From Alphaproteobacteria bacterium (GTDB lineage Bacteria; Pseudomonadota; Alphaproteobacteria; Micavibrionales; Micavibrionaceae), in the NCBI GenBank assembly GCA_030424975.1, contig JAUHVY010000002.1, forward strand, positions 310,001 through 374,000: 64,000 nucleotides of DNA, written 5' to 3'. The notes under the pieces are model-generated. The model did not search any database, was not told the DNA's origin, and saw nothing but the letters and a program-made list of their open reading frames with translations. The translations under genes and the position numbers were made by a program. Below, in pieces: positions 11,646 to 39,880 of the stretch (its first letter is position 1; every line of letters begins with the position of its first letter).

Positions 11646-12017
11646 ATGACAACGGATAACCGCAAATTGACAGATCACTTTTTTATACCCCCTCGTGCCG
11701 AAGGCGAACAAGATGACGGGCAGGAGCAACACGGCCTTATTCTAAAGACCCGCCCGAAACCTCAAAAACCATCAATGTATAAAGTACTGTTACTGAATGA
11801 CGATTACACACCGATGGAATTCGTTGTACATGTCCTTGAAAGCATATTCCAAAAAAACCGACAGGAAGCCACAGACATTATGCTTCATGTTCACCGCCGT
11901 GGCGTCGGGGTATGCGGCGTATATACGTTCGAGGTCGCAGAAACCAAAGTGGCTCAAGTGATGGATTTCGCACGTGCGAACGAACAGCCATTGCAATGCA
12001 CAATGGAAAAAGAATAA
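11646..12017 (+). CDS. clpS: ATP-dependent Clp protease adapter ClpS
   Basis: N-recognin that binds N-degron substrates (Leu, Phe, Tyr, Trp at the N-terminus) and delivers them to ClpAP. The 123 residues have a disordered N-terminal extension (1-38) and a core [20 protein letters not shown]. The core has the conserved substrate-pocket NDDYTPMEF and the [17 protein letters not shown] segment. Alphaproteobacteria may carry two ClpS paralogues; this one has the canonical layout. It is followed by a terminator and amtB, with clpA beyond them, so the usual clpS-clpA pair is interrupted. Confidence 0.94.
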
Positions 12018-12189: not shown

Positions 12190-13443
12190 TTGGAAACAGG
12201 ATTTATTTTAAACACATTCTTCCTTTTGGTTTGCGGTGCCATGGTAATGTTCATGGCGGCAGGCTTTGCCATGTTGGAAGCGGGTATGGTTCGTAGCAAA
12301 TCTGTTGCTGTAATCTTAATCAAAAACATCTCTTTATATGCCATTGCGGGCATCATGTTTTATCTCATCGGTTATAACCTTATGTTTACCGATGTCGATG
12401 GCGGCTTTTTCGGCACACCGATGCCATGGGTCGGCGATGACAGCCTGGCTCTATCCGGTGATTATAGTGCGGGTTACGCATCTTATGCTTTCTGGTTCTT
12501 CCAGATGGTTTTTGTTGCCACAGCCGCCTCAATCGTTTCTGGTGCTCTGGCAGAACGCATTAAATTATGGCCGTTCATGCTATTCGTTGCCATCTTGACT
12601 GGCCTTGTTTACCCCATCACAGGAAGCTGGGTATGGGGCGAAGGCTGGTTGTACCAAATGGGTTTCAGTGATTTCGCAGGCTCAACACTTGTACACTCCG
12701 TCGGTGGATGGGCCGCCTTAACAGGTGCCATCGTTCTTGGCGCACGTAAAGGGCGTTTTGATAAAGAAACAGGCGAAGCAAAACCAATCGTCGGCAGCTC
12801 TCTGCCGCAGGTAACAATCGGAACATTTATATTATGGTTCGGCTGGTTCGGTTTTAACGGCGGATCACAGCTTGCAATCTCAAGCGTTGAAGATGCCTTG
12901 GCCGTTGCGAAAATCTTTGCAAACACAAATATGGCGGCGGCTGCGGGTGTGATCACAGTCCTTGCAGTTAACCAATTCACTATGAAGCGTATCGATGTTC
13001 CAATGGCATTAAATGGTGCTTTGGCAGGCTTGGTTGCTATCACAGCGGGTCCGCTTTTACCAAGCCTTTGGCTTGCGATGCTAATCGGTGCTATGGGTGC
13101 AGGTATTATGATGCTGGCAACAGCAGCCCTTGAGAAATTCAAAATTGATGATGTTGTTGGTGCTATTCCTGTGCATTTGGCGGCGGGTATCTGGGGTACT
13201 TTGGCGGTAGTTTTATCCGACCCCGAGGCATCAATTGTGACACAGCTTATCGGTGTGACATCTGTTGGTTTATTCGTTTCCATCATCAGCATCGGCCTAT
13301 GGTCTGCTATGAAATTCAGCGTCGGCATTCGCCTGCACTGGACGAAAGAGGAGTTGGGCGGAGATTTATCTGAACTGGGTATTCGCGCTTATAACTTTGA
13401 GTTCGAAGAAACGCCCAGTGCACACATTGTTGCAGCTGAATAA
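12190..13443 (+). CDS. amtB: Ammonium transporter AmtB
   Basis: Amt/Mep/Rh-family channel of the inner membrane, trimeric in known members, importing ammonium. The 417 residues form about 11 membrane helices. The first twin-pore histidine lies in STLVHSVGGWAALTGA and the second in IPVHLAAGIWGTLAV. No cleavable signal precedes the first helix. Translation starts at TTG (12190) behind a strong GGAGG at 12180-12184; no ATG precedes the first helix. A PII protein is expected to gate it, but the PII gene is 8 kb upstream. It lies between clpS and clpA and has its own terminator at 13470. Confidence 0.95.
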   Translation: METGFILNTFFLLVCGAMVMFMAAGFAMLEAGMVRSKSVAVILIKNISLYAIAGIMFYLIGYNLMFTDVDGGFFGTPMPWVGDDSLALSGDYSAGYASYAFWFFQMVFVATAASIVSGALAERIKLWPFMLFVAILTGLVYPITGSWVWGEGWLYQMGFSDFAGSTLVHSVGGWAALTGAIVLGARKGRFDKETGEAKPIVGSSLPQVTIGTFILWFGWFGFNGGSQLAISSVEDALAVAKIFANTNMAAAAGVITVLAVNQFTMKRIDVPMALNGALAGLVAITAGPLLPSLWLAMLIGAMGAGIMMLATAALEKFKIDDVVGAIPVHLAAGIWGTLAVVLSDPEASIVTQLIGVTSVGLFVSIISIGLWSAMKFSVGIRLHWTKEELGGDLSELGIRAYNFEFEETPSAHIVAAE

Positions 13444-13581: not shown

Positions 13582-15894
13582 ATGCTTTCTCGCAATCTTG
13601 AACAAACACTTCACCGTGCATTGGCCATTGCCAATGAAAAACATCATGAATACGCAACATTAGAACACCTCCTCCTCGCTCTGTGTAGCGATCAGGATGC
13701 GATGGCAGTTCTGCGATCATGCGGCATTGATTTAGACGAGCTGGCGGCATCGCTTTTACATTATGTCGAAAACGACCTTAGCAGCTTAATCAATCACTCA
13801 TCCGAGGAATCAAAGCCGACAAACGCCTTTCAACGTGTACTGCAACGTGCGGCAATCCACGTACAATCATCAGGCCGTGAGGAAGTGACAGGTGCGAATG
13901 TTTTGGTGGCACTCTTTTCCGAGCGCGAAAGCCACGCGGTTTATGTTCTGCAGGAACGTGATATGACGCGTTTTGATGCCGTAAACTATATCTCGCACGG
14001 TATTGCCAAGGTCGCCTCGCAGAATGATACGCATAAAACACCGCAAGGCGTCGAGGAAGAAGAAAAAATTAAAGTCGGTAAAGAGGCTCTTGATGCCTAT
14101 TGCACTGACCTGAACCAAAAAGCTGCCGAAGGGGGCATTGACCCGCTTATCGGACGGACAAAAGAAGTAGAACGAACAATTCAGGTGTTATGCCGCCGCT
14201 CTAAAAACAATCCGTTATATGTTGGTGATCCTGGCGTTGGTAAGACCGCCATCGCCGAAGGGCTGGCAAAACGCATCAATGACAAAGAAGTGCCGGAAGT
14301 TCTGCATGATGCCGTTATCTACTCTCTCGACATGGGCGCACTTTTGGCGGGCACACGATATCGCGGCGATTTCGAAGAACGCTTAAAGTCCGTTTTATCG
14401 GAATTAAAGAACATCCCTGAATCCATTTTGTTTATCGATGAAATACATACAATCATCGGTGCAGGCGCAACCAGCGGCGGCGCAATGGATGCATCCAACC
14501 TTCTCAAACCCGCACTGTCGGACGGGTCGCTAAAATGCATCGGATCGACCACGTATAAGGAATATCGCAATCATTTCGAAAAAGACCGCGCCCTTGTTCG
14601 TCGCTTCCAAAAAATCGACGTTCCGGAACCGAGCATCGAAGACGCCGTGAAAATTTTGGAAGGGCTGCAGCCTTACTACGAAAAACATCACAATATTAAA
14701 TATACAAAAAGCGCCCTACGCGCAGCTGTGGAACTATCAGCCAAATATATCGGAGAGCGCAAATTGCCCGATAAGGCGATCGATATCATAGATGAGGTCG
14801 GCGCGGCGCAAATGTTGGTCACTGAAGATTTACGCAAGAAAACCATCGGCCAAAAAGACATTGAAAACGTCATTGCGGCCATTGCACGCATTCCATCCAC
14901 GACCATGAACAAGAACGATCGCGAGGCCTTACAAAACCTAGAGCGCGATTTAAAAACACTTGTTTACGATCAGGATAAAGCCATCGACATGTTGTGCGAT
15001 TCCGTAAAAATGGCGCGCGCGGGTCTACGCGACCCTGAAAAGCCAATCGGCTCTTATCTTTTCGCGGGGCCTACAGGTGTCGGTAAAACAGAGGTCGCAA
15101 AACAACTCGCAAAATCGCTTGGCGTTGAATTGCTCCGATTTGATATGTCGGAATATATGGAACGTCATTCGGTTTCCCGCCTAATCGGTACGCCGCCGGG
15201 CTATGTTGGTTTTGAACAAGGCGGCCTGATGACCGATAAGGTTGATCAACACCCGCATTGTGTCTTGCTGCTTGATGAAATTGAAAAAGCGCACCCTGAT
15301 TTGTTCAATATTTTGCTACAAGTCATGGACTACGGAAAACTGACCGATAACAACGGTAAAAGCATTGACTTCAGGAACGTTGTCCTAATCATGACAACCA
15401 ATGCAGGCGCATCGGAAATCGCAAAAACACCAATCGGGTTTGAGCGCAGTGTCGGTAGCATGGATTACGCCGATAACGAAGCCATCACCAGAAGCTTTAC
15501 CCCTGAATTCCGTAACAGATTGGATGCGATTGTACCGTTCCAGAATTTACAACCCGGAACCGTTGAAAAAGTCGTCGATAAATTTGTGCTACAGCTAGAG
15601 GCACAGCTATCTGATAAAAACGTCACAATCGAACTCAGCCCGAAAGCCCGTAAGTTTTTAGCAGAAAAAGGGTACGACGTCACAATGGGCGCACGTCCGC
15701 TTGGCCGTATCATTCAGGAAAAGATCAAACGTCCGCTGGCCGAAGAAATCCTGTTTGGCAAACTCGAAAAAGGCGGCGCAGTGATCATTGATTATGATGG
15801 CAAGGCAAATGATCTTTCATTTACCTATGAACCGGATAACCCGAAAAAACGCCGCGAGCAAAGACAAAAACGCGAAAAGGAAAGCGTGAAATAA
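13582..15894 (+). CDS. clpA: ATP-dependent Clp protease ATP-binding subunit ClpA
   Basis: AAA+ unfoldase that threads substrates into ClpP. The 770 residues contain the double Clp-N repeat (about 1-150), a first AAA module with Walker [14 protein letters not shown] (about 213-225) and Walker [12 protein letters not shown], and a second module with Walker [14 protein letters not shown] (about 496-508) and Walker [13 protein letters not shown]. The ClpP-docking loop IGF is present (KTPIGFERS, about residue 616). The C-terminal lysine-rich tail ([12 protein letters not shown]) is typical of the alphaproteobacterial form. clpP is not in the window. An SD-like AAGGAT precedes the ATG. Confidence 0.96.
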
Positions 15895-15915: not shown

Positions 15916-16596
15916 CTAACGCGTAATTAAGACATGATAGTAATTATAAAGGCCGGATGGAGACGGATCGATCAGACATCCGGCTTTATTATTGCGATAT
16001 GCATTACCACTAGCGTTACCAATACCGTTTGCGGCAAGCACATACGCCCCCTCAAAACCACCGGCATGATCAGATACTTCGTCTTCAGTTGCATTTGCCC
16101 CGTTCAACGTTTTATTGATCCTATCGCAAATATCGGGCTTCAGCTCTGTGATCCATAAAATTAATTCAGGTGCGGTCGTACCAATATCCAACACCGCAGT
16201 TTCTCCGTTAAACCACATTCCTGTGAAACCCGCTCCGTTAATAACCCAATCCTGTGGTTTATCCTTGTATACCGCTCCGCCACCATCTTTATCAAAAACA
16301 TGACATGACTTATCGCTCGGCGCATCAGGATTCTCATACATCCATTCAAGAAGCGGCGTTTCAAAGCTAATTTGTGTATCATTACAGTTATTTGATATAC
16401 GCAAAATATTAACAGCATCCTCGATTGATTTTGCATATGCCATGACTTCGGACGCATAAAGAGAGGCCTTCTCGCGCGAGATACCTTCACTACCGCCGCG
16501 CATCATATTTGATACGGCAAAACCAAGTGCAGCAAACAGAACCACTGCTATCAAAATATAGACAAGAACATTACCGCTCTCTGCTTTTCTATCCAT
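15916..16596 (-). CDS. Prepilin-like single-helix secreted protein
   Basis: The 226-residue product begins MDRKAESGNVLVYILIAVVL: a short basic leader, a Gly-x-x-like turn and a 20-residue hydrophobic helix, as in type IV prepilins and pseudopilins. The family's Glu5 is not clearly aligned. The rest is a soluble domain with four cysteines (NNCNDTQ, KSCHVF, PDICDRI, AGCLID) and a conserved-looking end LYNYYHVLITR. The frame stays open 152 codons upstream, but that part overlaps the divergent response-regulator gene and is not real. I recall similar uncharacterised proteins in Micavibrio-like genomes. Function unknown. Confidence 0.65.
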   Translation of the reverse strand: MDRKAESGNVLVYILIAVVLFAALGFAVSNMMRGGSEGISREKASLYASEVMAYAKSIEDAVNILRISNNCNDTQISFETPLLEWMYENPDAPSDKSCHVFDKDGGGAVYKDKPQDWVINGAGFTGMWFNGETAVLDIGTTAPELILWITELKPDICDRINKTLNGANATEDEVSDHAGGFEGAYVLAANGIGNASGNAYRNNKAGCLIDPSPSGLYNYYHVLITR

Positions 16597-16702: not shown

Positions 16703-17569
16703 ATGAATACAGAGCACGCCATAAATATCCTTATTGCAGAAGATAACGAAATCAGCCGTGAGTTAATGTCTACGCTTTTGAAAATGCGCGGATATAACAT
16801 CATTCCCGTATCTGACGGCACAGAGGCAATAAGAGCTGTTAACGAATATACAGTTGACCTTGCGCTCGTTGATATCAACATGGAACCGACAGGCGGATTT
16901 GAATTTGTAAAATACCTGAAAACGCATGGCATCACATTACCGGTCGTCGTTATTACCGCTGATGATTCAAGCGATATTTTAACGCGCGCCAGTGAACTTG
17001 GGGTCGTTCGTATTTTACAAAAACCGGTTGAGCCCGAGCGCCTGAATACCACGGTTGAAAATGTTCTGAAACGATATGGCCATCACGTCAAAAACATTGC
17101 GACCGAAACCTATCACACTCATTTTTCGCACGAACAACTGATGCAACGCGCTATTGATCTGGCGGAACGTAATGCCCAAAGCATGAAAGGCGGCCCATTC
17201 GGCGCAGTGGTTGCAAATGAAAAAGGGGAAATTCTTGGCGAAGGGACAAACGGTATTACTTCACGATCCGACCCGACAGCACATGCTGAAATTATGGCTA
17301 TTCGTCAGGCCTCTGAACGATTAGGGAAATCAGACCTTTCAGATTGTGTTTTGTACTGCTCCAGCGAGCCGACACAAATAGGCAAAGCATTGATCCTGAG
17401 CGTCGGCATCCGCAATGTTTTATTCGGCCTAAGTCATAGTGATATCAAAGATGACTGCCTGCGTGAGCGTAAGAAAACCCAAGAGCCGAGCTATCAGCAA
17501 GTCGGAAAAGAGCAAGCGCTGAAGATGTTCCGGCGCTGGCAAAATTTAGATCAAAAAATCGAAGACTAA
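16703..17569 (+). CDS. Response-regulator receiver fused to a degenerate guanine-deaminase-like domain
   Basis: 288 residues. Residues 5-125 are a complete REC domain: acidic pair E13-D14, phospho-acceptor D57 (LALVDIN), Thr in VITADD and the Lys of LQKPVEPE. Residues 128-288 are a cytidine-deaminase-superfamily domain of the GuaD/TadA type, with KGGPFGAVVANEKG and the proton-shuttle motif HAE (H194, E196). The second zinc motif, normally E-P-C-x-x-C, reads E-P-T-Q-I-G (E222-G227), so both zinc cysteines are missing. Without them the domain should not bind catalytic zinc, so it is probably a ligand-binding or interaction output rather than an enzyme. No histidine kinase is adjacent. Its stop codon directly abuts that of ridA. 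Confidence 0.85.
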   Translation: MNTEHAINILIAEDNEISRELMSTLLKMRGYNIIPVSDGTEAIRAVNEYTVDLALVDINMEPTGGFEFVKYLKTHGITLPVVVITADDSSDILTRASELGVVRILQKPVEPERLNTTVENVLKRYGHHVKNIATETYHTHFSHEQLMQRAIDLAERNAQSMKGGPFGAVVANEKGEILGEGTNGITSRSDPTAHAEIMAIRQASERLGKSDLSDCVLYCSSEPTQIGKALILSVGIRNVLFGLSHSDIKDDCLRERKKTQEPSYQQVGKEQALKMFRRWQNLDQKIED

Positions 17570-18043
17570 TTAAGCGATTTCAAAAACCGCGTCAATTTCA
17601 ACGGCAACACCCAAAGGCAGTGACGGCGCACTCACAGCAAATCGTGCATGCTTACCCGCATCGCCCATAACATCTGCAATCAAGTTTGACGCGCCATTGA
17701 TAACAACTGGCTGATTGGTAAATTCAGGCGTAGAATTAACAAAACCGCCTAGCTTCACACATCTTTTTACGCGTGAAAAATCACCACCGACCGCATCATT
17801 GACCTGCGCCAAAATATTAAGCGCACATGCCTGCGCAGCTTTTGCACCGTCTTCTTCGGTTAAATCGGCGCCAACACGTCCCAAATGCATTTTTTCGCCG
17901 TTTAAAAACGGAATTTGCCCAGATACGTAAACCATATTACCGGACACGACATAGGGAACATAATTTGCCGCAGGGGCAGCAACAGCAGGAAGAGATAAAC
18001 CTAGCTCTTGAAGTTTTGCGTTAACATCTTTAAGACTTGTCAT
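17570..18043 (-). CDS. RidA/YjgF-family protein
   Basis: RidA-like protein of 157 residues. Classical RidA hydrolyses reactive enamine/imine intermediates from PLP enzymes. Seen: YVPYVVSGNMVYVSGQIP, VGGDFSRVKRCVKLGGFVNS and the C-terminal signature ARFAVSAPSLPLGVAVEIDAVFE containing the conserved Arg and Glu. It is longer than the 130-residue archetype because of an N-terminal 25-residue extension, which matches the YjgH/TdcF-like long alphaproteobacterial group. The chosen ATG (18043) starts MTSLKDVNAKL; the in-frame upstream part has no family likeness. It is tail-to-tail with the REC-deaminase gene and divergent from the complex I subunit. Confidence 0.88.
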   Translation of the reverse strand: MTSLKDVNAKLQELGLSLPAVAAPAANYVPYVVSGNMVYVSGQIPFLNGEKMHLGRVGADLTEEDGAKAAQACALNILAQVNDAVGGDFSRVKRCVKLGGFVNSTPEFTNQPVVINGASNLIADVMGDAGKHARFAVSAPSLPLGVAVEIDAVFEIA

Positions 18044-27942: not shown

Positions 27943-29497
<1,555 letters not shown>

Positions 29498-38845: not shown

Positions 38846-39880
38846 TCAATCGCAATCAATGCCATTATAAAGAAGGCTATCAGGATCAGCCTCTGATTCC
38901 AACTTACGTTTCCATGTATGCTGTGCCTTGTTTTCAAAGGGTTCTAATCGCTTCACATAGAGCGTCGCACCGCTGAGATTATAATTCTGCGCGGCAATAA
39001 CATTAAAGAATCTATCATTTTCAATCCCCTTTGCCTCTTGCGTTGCCCACATATCGGCACGATCATGATCAACACTCACCCACTGTGTGACATTTGCCCA
39101 CTGGCACTCTGCATAACCCAGCGGACCCGGCGTTTTCGTCGATGTATATAATGTCGCCTTCCCCAAATCCCACGGCGTTTGCGCACCATTAGATTTTTGA
39201 ATACGCGCAGCATTTCGAATAGCGCTCACCTCCGGGGTTGCCATCATATCATGTGCGCGATTATCCCCCCCCTCAATCAGCATTCCGTCAGGCATCGCAA
39301 TAACGGCAACGGCCTGATCGCTTTTTTCAAAAATATCCGCTACGGCCTGCGGAATATCGGCGACACCCTGATCTTGATGGTCAATCATACGATCAGCGCG
39401 CGATTTTTGCATATCGACATGATACGGCGCGTCATTAAAACCCGCGATATCGGCTGTATCTTTATACGTAGCCCCATAGGTGACCACAAATTGCCCCTCT
39501 TTAATTAGCCCTTCTTCGATCAAATCACGCGCCAATATCTCTTGCTTCGAATGACAGGCGGGACAACTCTGACCGCTTGATGACATGACAACACAACACC
39601 CTTCGGTCGTTTCTAAACCACGCAAATACCCCTTTAACGCATCAATTGTTTCAGGGTTAAGCGCCTGATCCTCCGCATGCGCACTGCCCATTCCCGTCAA
39701 CAAAACCGCATTCGCCTCAACCTCTCCGATTTGCGTCACCTCGCCAATTTTCATGTCATAGACATGAATGGAAGCACCGAAAGGCCCGCCGCGCCCCTCC
39801 GTCACAGTTTTTACGGCAAAATCATCCGTTTCATTTAACAAATTATGTAATAATTTTTCAGGAATATTAATCGTAGACAT
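38846..39880 (-). CDS. Tandem cytidine/guanine-deaminase-fold protein with degenerate C-terminal half
   Basis: 344 residues. The N-terminal half is a zinc deaminase of the guanine-deaminase type: GRGGPFGASIHVYD (about 29-42), HAE at H68-E70, and zinc cysteines C106 and C109 in SCPAC. The second half appears to repeat the fold without its zinc site: ATPEVSAIRNAA (214-225) aligns with the HPE-containing helix, and LYTSTKTPGPLGYAECQWAN (244-263) aligns with the LYTSCEPCPMC segment, with all zinc ligands replaced. I infer one active and one structural or regulatory domain; the substrate (guanine, cytosine, pterin or another) is unknown. It is upstream of metF on the same strand. Confidence 0.75.
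   Translation of the reverse strand: MSTINIPEKLLHNLLNETDDFAVKTVTEGRGGPFGASIHVYDMKIGEVTQIGEVEANAVLLTGMGSAHAEDQALNPETIDALKGYLRGLETTEGCCVVMSSSGQSCPACHSKQEILARDLIEEGLIKEGQFVVTYGATYKDTADIAGFNDAPYHVDMQKSRADRMIDHQDQGVADIPQAVADIFEKSDQAVAVIAMPDGMLIEGGDNRAHDMMATPEVSAIRNAARIQKSNGAQTPWDLGKATLYTSTKTPGPLGYAECQWANVTQWVSVDHDRADMWATQEAKGIENDRFFNVIAAQNYNLSGATLYVKRLEPFENKAQHTWKRKLESEADPDSLLYNGIDCD

Follow-up and report, generated by a model that had tools for sequence, protein, structure and literature searches.

A predicted response regulator whose output is a guanine deaminase (GuaD) fold devoid of its zinc site is encoded in the genome (two contigs, 2.43 Mb) of an alphaproteobacterium of the family Micavibrionaceae. 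The window analyzed here is the whole stretch of 64,000 nucleotides containing the gene, and its features are listed in Table 1. Judged from sequence, the fusion of a receiver (REC) and a pseudo-guanine-deaminase appears to be a real and conserved response-regulator output, unreported within the literature searched, and its molecular function is predicted; no paper on a Micavibrio receiver-deaminase was found in a search that reached a minority of subscription journals. To our knowledge, few response regulators use a dead enzyme for their output, and RssB is the model among them. We consider it somewhat probable that the former guanine deaminase serves here as a pseudoenzyme output, binding a ligand or a partner under the control of phosphorylation.

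Table 1. Positions of the fusion gene, its domains and motifs, its neighbours, and related genes (window numbering unless a locus is given)
Feature	Position	Strand	Basis or remark
REC-pseudoGuaD fusion gene, 288 aa	16703..17569	+	ORF call and orthologues
Receiver domain, residues 6-126; E13, D14, D57, T85, K107 present	16718..17080	+	Pfam, residue table, model
Receiver D57 codon	16871-16873	+	
Pseudo-guanine-deaminase domain, residues 140-288	17120..17566	+	Pfam; GuaD/GSDA fold
H194-A195-E196, with the zinc-ligand His and the general-base Glu both kept	17282..17290	+	alignment
E222-P-T224-Q-I-G227 replacing E-P-C-P-M-C	17366..17383	+	alignment
clpA, conserved upstream neighbour	13582..15894	+	
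clpS, conserved upstream neighbour	11646..12017	+	
Pilin-like gene between clpA and fusion	15916..16596	-	no Pfam or NCBIfam match
Downstream convergent gene of the RidA family	17570..18043	-	
guaB	28007-29497		
guaA	41152-42756		
P0002, 344 aa, weakly deaminase-like, with an internal duplication	38846-39880	-	no Pfam or NCBIfam match
Zinc-less REC-GuaD of G098	L213 458-1258 = L235 8757-9557	-	

The receiver matches Response_reg (PF00072) in Pfam at residues 9-118 (E 1.3e-24) and has the fold of that family together with its acidic pair, phosphoacceptor Asp, Thr, and Lys; in a structure comparison, it aligns with the solved receiver 8fk2_A (Z 22.6, rmsd 1.2 over 121). The second domain matches dCMP_cyt_deam_1 at residues 143-242 (E 2.9e-19) and carries the motifs GGPFGA (163-168), DPTAHAE, and E-P-T-Q-I-G (222-227). 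The preliminary description had read a complete REC domain and a CDA-type domain from these same residues, and both readings hold. The model of the full-length protein (pLDDT 85, pTM 0.50) does not fix the relative arrangement of the two domains. Orthologues were searched in 142 genomes of the order, 104 of which are coded as the same family (f1, Micavibrio and relatives); the fusion is present in 43/104 f1 genomes, spread over 20 genus codes, and was not found in the other 61, some of these genomes being incomplete. A search for REC-CDA fusions in related genomes, as the preliminary description had proposed, yielded nine f3 and four f5 genomes with an intact zinc site and the zinc-less f5 G098, in addition to the 43 of f1.

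In the window, clpS and clpA precede the fusion, and a convergent ridA follows it. The pair clpS-clpA adjoins the gene in families f1, f2, and f3; in f3, the start of the fusion is at most about 20 nt away from the clpA stop. In RssB, which acts as a ClpXP adaptor, a receiver is joined to a phosphatase fold without active-site residues (PMC7226468); by this precedent, the dead GuaD might act like the dead PP2C of RssB and bind both a substrate and the neighbouring Clp ATPase, ClpA, under the control of the receiver. We regard this role as rather unlikely. An opposite-strand gene separates the fusion from clpA in most of f1, and a plain guaD already lies behind clpS-clpA outside the order: in both G140 and G141, a convergent ridA comes after clpS-clpA-guaD, and G249, from another order, has the same four genes clpS, clpA, guaD, and ridA in a different arrangement. 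Because the adjacency to clpA is inherited from plain GuaD, it says little on function, and its value as functional evidence was downgraded after clpS-clpA-guaD had been found in other orders. Since plain GuaD has the same position between clpS-clpA and ridA elsewhere, our conclusion is that the pseudo-domain descends from a functional GuaD at this locus. The clpS-clpA-guaD-ridA grouping was absent from the 15 other GuaD stretches examined outside the order. Its occurrence at L250, L251, and L264, in three genomes from different orders of Alphaproteobacteria than that of the window, may reflect an old functional link of GuaD, RidA, and ClpAP. As for the remaining genes of the locus, the pilin-like product has an N-terminal hydrophobic helix and its conserved gene is inserted at this place in most of the Micavibrionaceae, and a predicted membrane protein, ammonium-transporter-like by eye, is encoded between clpS and clpA (12190-13443, +).

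The preliminary description had also drawn attention to guaB, guaA, and a second deaminase-fold gene in the window. Both gua genes are present, but they lie 10-24 kb from the fusion, outside the conserved neighbourhood; a link by proximity is not supported, and their closeness is put down to chance. The second gene was located as P0002, with a weak profile match only; the first half of its product (GGPFGA...SAHAE...SCPAC) looks intact, and the second half (TPEVSAIR...TPGPLG) is without a zinc motif.

By sequence, the closest solved relatives of the pseudo-domain are the structures of Bacillus subtilis guanine deaminase, 1tiy/1wkq (E 1.2e-20), and its identity to intact GuaD sequences is about 29-38%. 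The domain modelled alone, from 72 sequences, gave a confident deaminase fold (pLDDT 90.7, pTM 0.86), and over 139 residues this model matches guanosine deaminase 7dc9_A with Z 19.8 and rmsd 2.1. In a deaminase tree built with the zinc-Cys columns removed, the f1 pseudo-domains constitute a single clade (100/99) with a long stem within GuaD, separated from TadA by a split of 99/97, which rules out a TadA origin; the zinc motif is absent as well. Tree, fold, and locus place the pseudo-domain in the GuaD lineage by descent, and the original guanine-deaminase-type assignment is borne out by the tree against TadA and by the match with 7dc9_A.

The first zinc Cys is replaced by Thr in 43/43 f1 orthologues and the second by Gly in 40, Ser in two, and Ala in one, whereas both are present in 98/98 GuaD comparison sequences. 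Because all f1 orthologues lack what all GuaD sequences have, the loss is neither chance nor error; the sequencing error that could have undone the initial reading is thereby ruled out, and the alignment with GuaD confirms that close homologues lack the cysteines too. The zinc site appears to have been lost in the common ancestor of the f1 fusions. In AtGSDA, zinc is held by His80, Cys110, and Cys113, Glu82 is the base, Asn69 anchors the purine, and Tyr185 caps the active site (PMC9739398). In the alignment, H194, E196, and N183 are the f1 equivalents of His80, Glu82, and Asn69, and both Cys and the Tyr are missing. The complete His-Cys-Cys zinc site, the GFDD loop, and the C-terminal Tyr of an active GuaD are not found in the fusion; loop and Tyr are absent from f1 and widespread in the GuaD set (F 98/98, D 96%, Tyr 96/98). 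Conservation of at least 85% in both f1 and GuaD is seen at 20 positions, including G163, G164, P165, N183, D190, H194, and E196, and R188 (95%), T224 (100%), G227 (93%), and H245 (86%) are newly fixed in f1.

The zinc His is kept in 42/43 and the general-base Glu in 43/43 f1 orthologues, and these residues, together with H245, R188, and C219 (86%), could suit a domain that remains enzymatically active by means of a different metal site or a different chemistry. This is improbable, since no Cys or His apart from H194 is invariant across f1 as a substitute ligand, H194 itself is lost in G042, the GFDD loop and capping Tyr are gone too, and a second independent loss occurred in G098 (below). Judged by motif, the deaminase domain is most readily taken as non-catalytic. 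The G042 protein (L160 5786-6745, -) is the most diverged f1 member, with FAE at the zinc His, GRAFGA for GGPFGA, and an intact receiver. Non-catalytic deaminase subunits have a precedent in ADAT3, and deaminase folds dimerise; the genome itself encodes an intact TadA-like protein (L004). A dead regulatory subunit paired with an active deaminase, as ADAT3 is with ADAT2, is nevertheless just as improbable, given that the pseudo-domain falls in GuaD and not in TadA and that an intact single-domain GuaD was seen in only two f1 genomes (G020 and G059).

The dN/dS of the dead domain between close pairs is 0.007-0.08, about equal to that of the receiver half, and the domain appears to be under strong purifying selection. 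Within the receiver, D57 is kept in 38/42 f1 fusions and all five residues E-D-D-T-K in 33/42; because D57 is lost in four, phosphorylation cannot be required everywhere. The fusion also seems dispensable in places, since it was not found in 61/104 f1 genomes and a lone receiver replaces it at the locus in G025 (without D57) and G037. Although these lone receivers, that of f2 G094, and the very diverged G042 are what would be expected if the receiver alone mattered and the deaminase half were a decaying relic, the dN/dS values, the invariant Thr, and the conserved pocket residues make this very improbable. The pseudoenzyme under phosphorylation control of the preliminary description stands in part: the zinc ligands are lost, the domain is conserved, and the receiver is, by its residues, mostly phosphorylatable.

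In the sister families, nine f3 and four f5 genomes encode a REC-GuaD with intact HAE and EPCPMC; the GFDD loop is kept in f3, and the Tyr near the C-terminus in all f3/f5 proteins. Their receivers keep the Asp and Lys; in f3, E-N, E-A, E-P, or D-P occupies the place of the acidic pair and most receivers have another residue for the Thr, and the one f5 receiver tested (L157) has no Pfam receiver match. Furthermore, f5 G098 combines a degenerate receiver with a zinc-less deaminase (HAE to KAV, EPCPMC to EPEPMS), a loss that is independent because the gene has the AIM24 and c14 neighbours that also accompany the active f5 proteins. Plain GuaD follows clpA directly in the f3 genus g46 (G126 and G096), and a plain receiver follows clpS-clpA in f2 G094. 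Because sister families have intact zinc sites with degenerate receivers and other orders have plain GuaD, we infer that an active GuaD gained a receiver, that f1 kept the receiver and lost the enzyme, and that the sister branch did the reverse. Shared locus position favours a single origin of the fusion, on which the trees disagree. A single clade of all fusions is not rejected in the deaminase tree (AU p 0.167, or 0.353 when the f3 single GuaD is included). The receiver tree, in which degenerate receivers are very long-branched, rejects a clade of f1 with f3/f5 (AU p 0.003-0.007) and places f1 near f2 and single receivers. In a search beyond the order, neither 385 genomes of the class (a few of them f1) nor 299 genomes of the phylum gave a REC-GuaD fusion spanning both domains, with cutoffs that strongly diverged fusions might escape, and no phage match reached 80% coverage of the protein.

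In the signalling pseudoenzyme that we prefer, a histidine kinase would phosphorylate D57, and phosphorylation would alter the dimer or the domain arrangement such that the dead active-site pocket is exposed or closed. The pocket keeps the purine anchor N183 with H194 and E196 and gained R188 and T224. Instead of catalysing a reaction, the domain would signal through what its pocket or surface binds, either a purine-like small molecule or a partner protein; the odds are roughly even between a pocket for a small molecule (purine or pterin-like) and a partner protein, and the retention of H194 and E196 might be structural. A more specific and unlikely version is a phosphorylation-gated purine sensor that would couple nucleobase availability, e.g., prey-derived guanine, to two-component signalling in Micavibrio-type predators, possibly via ClpAP. 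Micavibrio aeruginosavorus ARL-13 has at least 41 two-component genes up-regulated in attack phase (PMC3189940), and no passage on the fusion protein was found in that paper.

The whole series of plain active GuaD, receiver with active GuaD, receiver with dead GuaD, and lone receiver exists in living genomes, with positions traceable by neighbouring genes, and provides an unusually complete record from enzyme to pseudoenzyme. With it, one can test how an enzyme becomes a signalling module and which disappears first, regulation or catalysis, and the sister lineages, which kept the enzyme while the receiver decayed, are a natural reciprocal experiment.

Compared with known systems, the fusion has the fold, lineage, GGPFGA, purine-anchoring Asn, and HAE in common with GuaD-type enzymes (B. 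subtilis GuaD 1wkq/1tiy, NE0047, and Arabidopsis thaliana guanosine deaminase) and differs from them in lacking both zinc Cys, the GFDD loop, and the C-terminal Tyr and in its added receiver. The deaminase fold is also shared with TadA and ADAT2-ADAT3, although the fusion belongs to another subfamily by the tree and TadA has no receiver. The f3/f5 REC-GuaD fusions have the same domain order, and those of f3 share the clpS-clpA locus, whereas their enzyme is intact and their receiver degenerate at the acidic pair and Thr. RssB likewise joins a receiver to a catalytically dead binding domain, and the fusion lies near a Clp ATPase gene; however, the dead domain of RssB is a PP2C, whereas the output here is a GuaD deaminase fold. 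By analogy, the best reading is that the fusion would work like RssB without being a member of the RssB family.
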